NCBI RefSeq assembly: GCF_000426225.1
Contig: NZ_AUEY01000013.1
Location: 1-64,000, forward strand
DNA from: Desulforegula conservatrix Mb1Pa
GTDB taxonomy: Bacteria > Desulfobacterota > Desulfobacteria > Desulfobacterales > Desulforegulaceae
Direction of reading: 5' to 3'
DNA: 64,000 nucleotides
The notes beneath the pieces were generated by a model. The model saw only the letters and a list, made by a program, of their open reading frames with translations, ran no database searches and was not told where the DNA came from. The position numbers and the translations under genes are program-made. The number at the start of each line of letters is the position of its first letter. Positions within the stretch are counted from its first letter, which is position 1. Shown here piece after piece: positions 53,779-62,107 of this stretch.

Positions 53779-55038
53779 ATGGATAGAATTATAGTGGAAG
53801 GCGGAAGAAGGCTTTCCGGAGAAGTAAGGGCAAGCGGAGCCAAGAATGCGGCGCTTCCGATTCTTGTTTCATCTATGCTGACTGACGGGCCATGCGTTTA
53901 TGACAACGTACCAGCCTTAAAGGATATAGAAAGCATTTGTCTGCTGCTCGAAGATCTCGGAGCTAAGGTCGAAACTTCAGGCAGCAAAGTTCAGATTGAC
54001 GCAAAAGGAATTTTCAAACACGAAGCAAGCTATGAACTTGTAAGAAAGATGAGGGCTTCGGTTCTTGTTCTTGGGCCTCTTGTCGCACGCATGGGAAGAG
54101 CAAGGGTTTCGCTTCCGGGCGGATGCGCGATAGGCGCACGTCCTGTTGATCTGCATCTCAAGGGTCTTGAGCTGCTCGGCGCTGAAATCAAGATCGAACA
54201 TGGATATATAGATGCCATTGCACCCAAGCTCAAGGGTGCTGTCATATACCTTGACACTGTCACAGTGACAGGCACAGAGAACCTCATGATGGCGGCCGTA
54301 CTCGCAGAAGGCGAGACAATTCTCCAGAATGCTGCCATGGAGCCTGAAGTTGTTGCGCTTGCAGATGTTCTTAAAGGAATGGGAGCTGATATAGAAGGCG
54401 CTGGAACTCCGGAAATAAGAATTCGCGGAAAGGCCTCACTTTCTCCTGTAAAAGCTTCCATTATTCCTGACCGCATCGAAGTCGGAACATATATGGTGGC
54501 AGCCGCTCTAACAGGAGGTGATGTGACTGTTACTGGCTGCAATCCTCATCATATGATGAGCGTCATGGATAAGCTCAGGCAGACAGGAATAAAAGTTGAT
54601 GTTGTCGGAGACAGTGCCGTCAGAATCAACGGAAACGGGCATATCAAAAGCATAGACATCAAAACCGTGCCGTATCCGGGATTTCCTACAGACATGCAGG
54701 CCCAGTTCATGGTTTTAATGTCTGTTGCGGACGGTCGCAGCGTAATAACAGAAACAATATTTGAAAACAGATTCATACACGTCAGCGAGCTAAAAAGGCT
54801 TGGGGCAGACATAACAATAACATCAGGCAGCACTGCTGTAGTCAAAGGAGTACCCGGACTTTCAGGAGCCCCTGTCATGGCATCAGACTTAAGAGCAAGC
54901 GCCTCACTTATTCTCGCTGGACTTGTCGCTTCCGGAGAAACAGAAGTCAACCGAGTCTATCATCTGGACAGAGGATATGAGAAGATTGAAAGCAAGTTTG
55001 AAGGTCTGGGAGCTGCGATAAGAAGGGTAAGAGAATAG
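53779..55038 (+). CDS. murA: UDP-N-acetylglucosamine 1-carboxyvinyltransferase
   Basis: Catalyses the first committed step of peptidoglycan synthesis. A 419-residue enolpyruvyl transferase with the catalytic C116 in LPGGCAIGARPVDLH, so it should be fosfomycin-sensitive. The N-terminal SGAKNAALPIL and the late FPTDMQAQFM are also conserved. AAGGA lies 11 bases upstream. It sits 28 bases after ccsB, which may reflect co-transcription. Confidence 0.96.
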   Translation: MDRIIVEGGRRLSGEVRASGAKNAALPILVSSMLTDGPCVYDNVPALKDIESICLLLEDLGAKVETSGSKVQIDAKGIFKHEASYELVRKMRASVLVLGPLVARMGRARVSLPGGCAIGARPVDLHLKGLELLGAEIKIEHGYIDAIAPKLKGAVIYLDTVTVTGTENLMMAAVLAEGETILQNAAMEPEVVALADVLKGMGADIEGAGTPEIRIRGKASLSPVKASIIPDRIEVGTYMVAAALTGGDVTVTGCNPHHMMSVMDKLRQTGIKVDVVGDSAVRINGNGHIKSIDIKTVPYPGFPTDMQAQFMVLMSVADGRSVITETIFENRFIHVSELKRLGADITITSGSTAVVKGVPGLSGAPVMASDLRASASLILAGLVASGETEVNRVYHLDRGYEKIESKFEGLGAAIRRVRE

Positions 55039-55484
55039 ACAGATTGTTGATTCGTCATCTTACCCAATTCAGTTTATAGGCGTTTTAGTTTGGGGAACTT
55101 TTTGTAAAAAGTTCCCCTACCCCCTCAAAAACTTCATTTTTTGTAACCGTTCACCAGAATTTTAAAGCGATTTTTTTTATGAAAGGTCACTTTTTTGAAA
55201 AAAAGCTTGGCAAAAAACTTATGGTTTTTATGGGATGCTCTACTACATCTTCAACCAGCAAGATAGTGTCATAAATTGCAGCACATATCCTGAACAGGAG
55301 ATAGATACCAACATCCGAAGGGTTTGAGGGAAAAGGGTTTTCCAAGGATAAGTATAGCAAGTTGAATTTTACCAGTTTTTTATTATTTAAGCGCAGACGG
55401 CTCTGTGTTTTGCCTATGCTATGTCATAATATCTAAAAATTTTTGCGGAGCTTAAAAAAAACGGCCCGCTGGAGGCAATTTTAG
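55039..55484. repeat. Intergenic region with module A hairpins
   Basis: No gene. A hairpin at about 55092-55136 (GGGGAACTTTTT and AAAAAGTTCCCC, then CCTCAAAAACTTC), a module A variant at about 55188-55222 (AAAAAAAGCTTGGC and AAAAAACTTATGG), and a diverged reverse module A at about 55440-55476 (TTTTTGCGGAGC, GGCCCGCTGGAGGCA). The last one provides the GGAGG in front of comEC. Confidence 0.68.
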
Positions 55485-55487
55485 CTG
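55471..55487 (+). promoter_or_regulatory. Repeat-derived ribosome-binding site and CTG start of comEC
   Basis: GGAGG at 55471-55475 lies nine bases before an in-frame CTG at 55485. An in-frame TAG at 55482 closes the frame just upstream, and no ATG, GTG or TTG occurs in frame before 55854. The GGAGG belongs to the end of a reverse module A repeat (GCTGGAGGCA). Confidence 0.6.
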
Positions 55488-57974
55488 AATAGCTGTAACG
55501 AATCCCCAAGAATAAAAATCTCCAGGCCATTTATTCCGGTTCTTTTTTCATTTGCGGCGGGCATAGTTTCAGCAGAATATATTCCTGGCCAAACTTTTAC
55601 TGCATGGATTTTCACGGCTTGCTGTTTCTCATTTATCCTGCTTATTCTCGCTGGTTCAGATAAAAACAGAAAAACATTCATAGCCCCTCTGATCCTTTTC
55701 ACTTCCCTAGGTTATATTTCAGCATCCCAGTATATTAAGTTTGATTCAAATAATCCTGAAGATCTTATCAACCATGCTGATGGTGAAAAAAAAAGAATAA
55801 CAGGATATGTAGATTCGCTCCCAAGGGTTTATGATGATGGCTCAAGCTTCATAATGAATGTTGAAAAAATTGAGGCAAACAGCAATACACAGAAAATCAA
55901 GGGGCAGATCCAGGTCTCGCTGGATGGAACATCCATACCGCCTTCCCCTGGGAACAGAATCTCGTTCATTTCAACAATAGGGAAGATAAGAAGCTTCAAA
56001 AATCCTGGATGCTATGATTATGCAAGGCACATGCTTTTTGAAGGCATTAAGACAAGATGCAGCGTAAAGGCTGGGTCGATCGGTTTTCTTGAGCCTGAAA
56101 AAAGAAGCGCCATGATCATGGCCGACAGGTTCAGACTGAAAGCCGGAAAAGCAATGGATAATGCTATTCCAGATGATTCTGCGGTTGTAAAAGCGCTCAT
56201 CACGGGTGATACTTCAGGGATATCATCTAAACTCAGGTATGCTTTTAACAGAACAGGCGCTGGTCATCTGATAGCAATTTCAGGACTGAATATCGGAATA
56301 ATTGCGGCAGTTTCTTTTTTTACGGCAAGATATTTTCTGTCCTTCTGGCCATTCATTCTTAAAAAAGGAATACTTATCAGATGCGCCTCATTTGCTGCGA
56401 TATTTCCAGTTATTTTTTACGGGCTCATTTCTGGTCTTGAGCCGTCAGCTTTACGGGCGGTAATAATGGCTTCGGTAATTCTTTCAGCTGGCGTATTCTC
56501 AAGGGAAAGCGATATTCTTAATTCAATCGCAGCATCAGCATTTATGATTCTTGCAGTGATGCCTGGCAGCCTCTTCAGTATTTCATTCATACTGTCATAT
56601 ATGGCCGTACTTTTTCTGATTCTTTCTGCTCCGGTTTCAGAAATGATCAGACAAAAATTCTCGAACTCAGGAAAGTCTGGGAAAATAATATCATGGACAC
56701 TTCTTTCTCTGACGGTTTCTGTGTTTGCCACACTTGGAACAGCCCCTTTCGTAATGCACTATTTCGGCAATTTTTCTCCGGTTGGAATTCTTGCAAATCT
56801 TATACTTGTACCTCTTTTCGGAGCCGTGGCAGTAGCACCAGGCCTTTTGGCGGTTCTTTTTCTGCCTTTTTCAGAGTCTGCTTTCATCTTTCTAATTAAA
56901 ATTGCGGCTCTGCCTGTAAGAATTGGAACGGTCATTATTGAATATCTGGCAGAATTCAAATATTCATCTTTTCAGACAATCTTTCCTGATATTTTTGAGG
57001 TCTTTCTATTATATGCAATACTCTTATCAGGCTTAGTCGTATTGAATAACCGGATAAAAAAGACTCCAACCACAGACTTCAAGAACAGAGCCATTATCCA
57101 TATTTTTGTATTATCCTGTTTCCTTATGCTTATTGACGCTGGAATCTGCATTAAACAAAGATTTTTCAATAAGGATCTATATATAAGCATACTCGATGTT
57201 GGACACGGGAATTCGGCTCTTGCGGAACTTCCTGGAGGGAAAACCATGCTGATTGATGGAGGTGGTTTTCAGGGAAAAGGCGGACTTGATACAGGCAAAG
57301 ATATAATCACTCCGTTTCTGAAGCGTAAAAAAATCCTCAATATTGATTATATGGTACTGACCCATCCAGACACCGACCATATTAAAGGGCTTTTGCATAT
57401 TGCTGAGAATTTCAGTCCTGAAGAATTCTGGAAAGGCCCGGACAAGAGTGATTCGCCAGATTATATAAGGCTGATGGAAATTCTCAAAGAAAATGGCACA
57501 AAAATCATTGAACTCACTGATAGCGATGAAAACAGGAGTATTAATGACGTAAAAATAGAATTTCTGAATCCATCAAAAAATAACGGAGAAGATCAGAAAA
57601 GAGAATCCACAAATGATGAGTCTCTTGTCCTGAAGCTTAATTTCAAGGACAAGGCATTTCTTTTTACCGGTGACATCTCTGAAAAAGCCGAAGTAAAAAT
57701 GACGAAATCATATCCAGAAAAACTTCAGGCAAATCTTATACTTATGCCCCACCACGGAAGCAATGGATCTGGCTCAGTAGTTTTTCTGGACAATGTCAAG
57801 CCAGAAGCAGCATTAATATCTGCGGGCAGAAAGGGATTGCCAGGCAAAGAGCTGTTGCAAAGACTAAAGCAAAGAAATATAAGCACCTGGCGGACAGATT
57901 TAAACGGCTGCATTACGGTTGGTATGGGCAGTAATGGTTACTCGATAAAGGCATTCACAGATGTTCAAAAATAA
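55485..57974 (+). CDS. comEC: DNA internalization protein ComEC/Rec2, likely CTG start
   Basis: An inner-membrane channel for DNA uptake. From the CTG at 55485 it has 829 residues, the usual size. The first 123 residues contain the typical start SRPFIPVLFSFAAGIVSAEY and two membrane segments plus GYVDSLPRVYDDG of the DUF4131 region, so they are clearly coding. The central competence domain (GAGHLIAISGLNIGI) and a C-terminal metallo-beta-lactamase-like domain (DVGHGNSA, LTHPDTDHIKG, LMPHHGSNGS) follow. Starting at the first ATG (55854) would lose the N-terminal part. The 3' end overlaps the next gene by 14 bases. No comEA is nearby. Confidence 0.88.
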   Translation: MNSCNESPRIKISRPFIPVLFSFAAGIVSAEYIPGQTFTAWIFTACCFSFILLILAGSDKNRKTFIAPLILFTSLGYISASQYIKFDSNNPEDLINHADGEKKRITGYVDSLPRVYDDGSSFIMNVEKIEANSNTQKIKGQIQVSLDGTSIPPSPGNRISFISTIGKIRSFKNPGCYDYARHMLFEGIKTRCSVKAGSIGFLEPEKRSAMIMADRFRLKAGKAMDNAIPDDSAVVKALITGDTSGISSKLRYAFNRTGAGHLIAISGLNIGIIAAVSFFTARYFLSFWPFILKKGILIRCASFAAIFPVIFYGLISGLEPSALRAVIMASVILSAGVFSRESDILNSIAASAFMILAVMPGSLFSISFILSYMAVLFLILSAPVSEMIRQKFSNSGKSGKIISWTLLSLTVSVFATLGTAPFVMHYFGNFSPVGILANLILVPLFGAVAVAPGLLAVLFLPFSESAFIFLIKIAALPVRIGTVIIEYLAEFKYSSFQTIFPDIFEVFLLYAILLSGLVVLNNRIKKTPTTDFKNRAIIHIFVLSCFLMLIDAGICIKQRFFNKDLYISILDVGHGNSALAELPGGKTMLIDGGGFQGKGGLDTGKDIITPFLKRKKILNIDYMVLTHPDTDHIKGLLHIAENFSPEEFWKGPDKSDSPDYIRLMEILKENGTKIIELTDSDENRSINDVKIEFLNPSKNNGEDQKRESTNDESLVLKLNFKDKAFLFTGDISEKAEVKMTKSYPEKLQANLILMPHHGSNGSGSVVFLDNVKPEAALISAGRKGLPGKELLQRLKQRNISTWRTDLNGCITVGMGSNGYSIKAFTDVQK

Positions 57975-58841: not shown

Positions 58842-62107
<3,266 letters not shown>

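Follow-up and report, generated by a model that had tools for sequence, protein, structure and literature searches.

The comEC frame and the start positions of its relatives

Where does translation of comEC begin in Desulforegula conservatrix Mb1Pa, when its reading frame offers no canonical start codon until deep inside the coding sequence? In the window, by which we mean the whole 64,000-nucleotide stretch of DNA that was analysed, the full-length comEC frame is open on the plus strand from 55485 to 57974, comprising 829 codons without an internal stop. Codons 1-123 contain no in-frame ATG, GTG or TTG, and the first canonical codon is the ATG at 55854-55856, codon 124. Directly 5' of the first codon, a CTG, stands an in-frame TAG stop (55482-55484). 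An earlier note on this DNA had described 123 codons of ComEC-type coding sequence ahead of the first ATG, and a CTG just after the closing stop with GGAGG nine bases upstream; the sequence agrees on both counts, with the CTG at 55485 and the GGAGG at 55471-55475. The window holds 43 stop-to-stop frames of at least 200 codons, and of these comEC has the longest wait for a canonical start, the next longest being 94 and 32 codons.

By its domain content the comEC product is assigned to the ComEC/Rec2 DNA-uptake channel family, with uptake itself as its predicted function. Pfam matches were obtained to Competence (PF03772, E value 4.4e-57), DUF4131 (1e-24, residues 37-197) and metallo-beta-lactamase (4.8e-13) domains. 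The product co-aligns with ten relatives along its length and keeps the HPxxDH and PHHGS motifs, and conservation in this alignment sets in at residue 14. Further along the window, past comEC and the gene that follows it, short direct repeats separated by spacers at 58956-60221 resemble a CRISPR array and show as repeated peptides in the list of open reading frames.

For comEC the comparison drew on loci from 29 genomes of this order together with 80 named loci, mainly from Desulfobacterales and other deltaproteobacteria; the nearest named relatives by comEC are mostly Desulfobacterales. Counting the 102 relatives whose comEC match reaches the N-terminal part, a canonical start stands before a conserved RP motif in 99 (ATG in 74, GTG in 15, TTG in 10), most often 7 codons before the Arg of the motif and mostly 6-8. 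The earlier note had proposed a comparison with orthologues and had allowed that these might truly begin at the later ATG; none of the 99 starts anywhere near ATG 55854, which lies inside DUF4131 and is not the orthologous start. Of the three exceptions, two lie at contig ends and the third, from a metagenome assembly, has an apparent frameshift: a 29-nt tandem duplication at its comEC start, which may be genuine or an artefact of the assembly, seems to displace the frame. Most aligned relatives begin at residues 6-8 of the window ComEC, so the native start would fall at the codons GAA TCC CCA, which include no start codon.

Dispersed repeats in the murA-comEC junction

The direct 5' neighbour of comEC in many relatives is murA (UDP-N-acetylglucosamine 1-carboxyvinyltransferase), and the plus-strand gene at 53779-55038 is taken to be murA. 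Tblastn with its protein gave upstream matches at 64-76% identity in most of the comEC loci that extend far enough. Same-strand murA lies upstream of comEC in 57 relative loci, and nearly all of the gaps range from an overlap to a few hundred bases, with a 4-nt murA/comEC overlap in five cases. In the window the gap is 446 nt (55039-55484), a length that alone is not unique to this genome because some relatives also have long gaps. Much of it consists of dispersed repeat modules, with 63 matching places in the same genome, the gap itself included. It also holds an inverted repeat at 55092-55117, and a consensus scan of the gap detected no sigma-70-like promoter and no terminator.

The GGAGG at 55471-55475, the putative Shine-Dalgarno sequence of comEC, sits inside the conserved part of one of these multi-copy repeats, the hairpin-like module A, whose consensus is approximately AAAGTTTTTGCGGAGCTTTTTTCAAAAAGCGACCCGCCGGAGGCA and which is present in at least 131 copies in this genome. 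The module A pattern GCGACYCGCYSGAGGCA, with at most one mismatch, was found in 131 copies, and the reversed control pattern in none. Across 61 copies conservation is strong through GGAGGCA and then vanishes, which sets the end of the comEC copy (55433-55477, plus strand) at 55477. The earlier assignment of the GGAGG to the end of a module A repeat is therefore upheld by the copy number and by this conservation edge. The comEC CTG was ruled out as part of module A, since conservation ends 8 nt before it. The comEC copy is about 80% identical to the consensus, with the GGAGG kept, and this divergence suggests that it is probably old; 31 sampled copies are 81 to 100% identical to the consensus, which was written down from copies, in a sample that favours those with an intact motif. 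A search of Rfam with the comEC start region gave no match.

A diverged copy of a second repeat, module B (AAAAGGGTTTTCCAAGGATAAGTATAGCAAGTTGAAT...), was placed at 55331-55374 on the plus strand by the family listing, with a 97% match over 37 nt to C20:11284-11320. Pieces of module B (AAAAGGGTTTTCCAAGAATAAAAATGTTAAGCTGAATAGTTAC) also occur, in swapped order, at the comEC start itself, with AGCTGAATAG at 55483-55492 and CCAAGAATAAAAAT at 55506-55519, making 55483-55519 (plus strand, codons 1-12) a probable repeat-derived segment. In a post hoc test none of 2000 shuffles equalled this match, nor did any of 2966 other segments of the window; the match is only suggestive because the test was set after it had been seen. 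It fits the alignment, in which conservation is gained at residue 14. The resemblance of the first 12 or so codons to pieces of a second repeat suggests that the native start was probably overwritten. The earlier reading was right about the repeat origin of the GGAGG and had overlooked that repeats part comEC from murA and that these codons, too, resemble repeat sequence.

Module A copies stand before other genes as well. At least seven long frames in this genome open with an ATG that has a module A GGAGG 5-10 nt upstream, and an eighth such frame came from the pattern search. At one further copy a CTG lies at Shine-Dalgarno distance and is probably no start, because a canonical ATG follows in frame ten codons later. 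Of 40 long-frame starts, seven lie 4-12 nt downstream of GGAGG and the next three 9-nt bins hold 3, 1 and 3, a modest excess (Poisson p about 0.01). Raw counts of ATG at Shine-Dalgarno distance after the repeat gave no enrichment, either here or in a second genus. General selection of the repeat as a ribosome-binding site is unsupported by a shifted control, in which ATG 9-16 nt after GGAGGCA was commoner than ATG 1-8 nt after it in three genomes of the other genus.

In this genome the 12-mer CCGCCGGAGGCA has 57 occurrences. Four genomes of one other genus of the order carry 329 to 1147 each, three further genomes carry 47 to 64, and the four others that were checked have one or two. In the genus rich in it, the 12-mer is the 3' tail of several different hairpins, and some of these hairpin repeats end 4-10 nt before gene starts. 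Some genes start at Shine-Dalgarno distance after CCGCCGGAGGCA, among them presumable ispF and endonuclease IV genes, named from their N-terminal sequences. Judged by position, the repeat would provide the Shine-Dalgarno sequence in some cases, and nowhere do we infer selection for that role. The literature searched offered no direct precedent for repeats as suppliers of ribosome-binding sites. A broader proposal is that hairpin repeats ending in CCGCCGGAGGCA, present in hundreds of copies in some genomes of the order, are portable ribosome-binding sites, and that the comEC start region (Shine-Dalgarno sequence, CTG and first codons) was taken wholly from repeats to yield an IF3-sensitive competence gene. 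We regard this proposal as speculative and rather unlikely to hold as a whole.

Candidate start codons and rival explanations

Shine-Dalgarno pairing was compared across the in-frame candidates with a standard anti-Shine-Dalgarno sequence, which was assumed because this draft yielded no 16S sequence. The duplex energy is -9.3 kcal/mol for the CTG at 55485-55487, the first codon of the open frame and 9 nt after the GGAGG, compared with -0.9 for ATA 55512, -1.4 for ATC 55518, -2.5 for ATT 55533 and -1.8 for ATG 55854. Because its pairing is the strongest among the in-frame near-cognate codons, CTG 55485 is the best candidate for the comEC start on sequence grounds. In the predicted RNA fold the GGAGG is partly paired, and the stability of the start region is no better than that of shuffles (z 0.32). 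The earlier reading that comEC appears to start at this CTG thus gains partial support from the missing canonical start, the upstream starts of relatives and the best Shine-Dalgarno pairing; the use of the CTG by ribosomes is what we infer from them.

Near-cognate starts appear to be used in this cell, as the sole start of infC in the same genome (locus L204, contig C3, minus strand) is an ATC. The infC frame has no canonical start before codon 62, and its conserved sequence opens at the ATC (about position 2013), seven nt after AGGAGG; automatic annotation would misplace this start too. The infC gene is known to use an AUU or AUC start, with autoregulation by IF3, and non-canonical starts are repressed by IF3 (PMC5472188). 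CUG is an inefficient bacterial start codon, on which initiation complexes are less stable (PMC11497404), and bacterial CUG initiation has been found for N-terminal proteoforms of Salmonella, in four cases by Ribo-RET (PMC11005335). Non-AUG starts are already known, and the unusual part of the comEC case is the start region supplied by repeats.

We consider initiation of comEC at a non-canonical codon, the CTG or another near-cognate, to be likely. With somewhat less confidence, we favour the view that repeats replaced the native comEC start and that full-length ComEC now begins at CTG 55485 by means of the module A GGAGG. Ancestrally, comEC would have followed murA with an ordinary start codon. 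A cluster of dispersed repeats would then have spread into the junction and replaced the native start codon and the first few codons. The GGAGG at the 3' end of module A would place fMet-tRNA at CTG 55485, the first 12 or so codons would be read from repeat-derived DNA, and native sequence would resume near Ser13-Arg14-Pro15. Expression of ComEC would be expected to be low and repressed by IF3; control of comEC by IF3 is perhaps to be expected from the behaviour of other non-canonical starts. Against the CTG stand its distance of 5-7 codons upstream of most orthologous starts, the inefficiency of CUG as a bacterial start codon and the errors that a draft assembly can carry in a repeat-rich junction.

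A rival reading is a start at another near-cognate codon, chiefly the ATA at 55512-55514 (codon 10; MKISRPF...), which is the near-cognate candidate closest to the orthologous start position. The conserved Arg of the RP motif is 4 codons downstream of the ATA, as against 13 for the CTG and a mode of 7 in relatives. The absence of a Shine-Dalgarno sequence upstream of the ATA, set against the strong pairing before the CTG, leaves it only a slim chance. A second rival is a sequencing or assembly error: the true genome would open the frame with a canonical codon, at codon 1 or 10 for instance, or run in frame from the TTG at 55443. The draft genome has 178 contigs and the junction is rich in repeats, and a one-base change at the CTG, at ATA 55512 or at the TAG would be enough to yield an ordinary start. 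However, the remainder of the 829-codon frame bears no sign of error and base errors are rare in assembled genomes; furthermore, both other frames are closed by stops at 55486-55513, so no single indel just 3' of the start can join a canonical start to the frame. We therefore judge such an error improbable.

About equally improbable, in our estimate, is that the repeats silenced the gene, so that ATG 55854 would yield a truncated protein at most. The loss of the native start, the separation from murA and the lack of a sigma-70-like promoter in the gap would suit silencing, but the frame has stayed open over 829 codons beside a repeat copy that has itself diverged, which suggests continued translation. 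The truncated form would moreover be missing more than half of DUF4131 as well as the hydrophobic segments at the N-terminus, and its ATG has no Shine-Dalgarno sequence. Readthrough of the TAG at 55482 from a short frame starting at TTG 55443 seems very improbable: the TTG is in frame and the base after the TAG is C, but by eye no clear Shine-Dalgarno sequence precedes the TTG and the relatives show no precedent.

A search of genome contigs with the single protein returned no comEC relatives, and a profile search returned 80 loci at 30-38% identity, none close enough for the pre-repeat state to be visible. Among the genomes searched, in which the host family is a singleton, no close relative with the pre-insertion state was found.

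Implications and comparison with known systems

Gene finders limited to ATG, GTG and TTG would place the comEC start at codon 124 or treat the gene as broken. If CTG initiation is true, mobile intergenic repeats can swap the start region of a gene without killing it, and comEC expression becomes a candidate for control by IF3. The infC and module A cases of the same genome provide ready controls.

The AUU and AUC starts of infC resemble the proposed comEC start in placing a near-cognate codon behind a strong Shine-Dalgarno sequence. They differ in being autoregulatory and conserved, whereas the comEC start has been found in this genome alone, with a Shine-Dalgarno sequence derived from a repeat. 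The GTC start of Streptomyces sigR, which is repressed by IF3, is likewise a rare start of a single gene missed by annotation (PMC5472188). Unlike that of comEC, it was shown by experiment and is common to streptomycetes, and no repeat is mentioned in the passages on it (PMC5472188). The CUG-initiated proteoforms of Salmonella share bacterial initiation at CUG with the comEC model (PMC11005335), but they are extra products made beside an annotated start, whereas the comEC CTG would be the sole route to the full-length protein. Module A is similar to REP, BOX and MITE-like repeats in being short and palindromic, and REPs exceed 100 copies per genome (PMC2817692, PMC3049150). BOX elements are able to supply a start codon, and BOX-encoded frames are without good Shine-Dalgarno candidates (PMC2817692, PMC3049150). 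Module A differs from all of these in belonging to another sequence family and in carrying GGAGG at its 3' edge.
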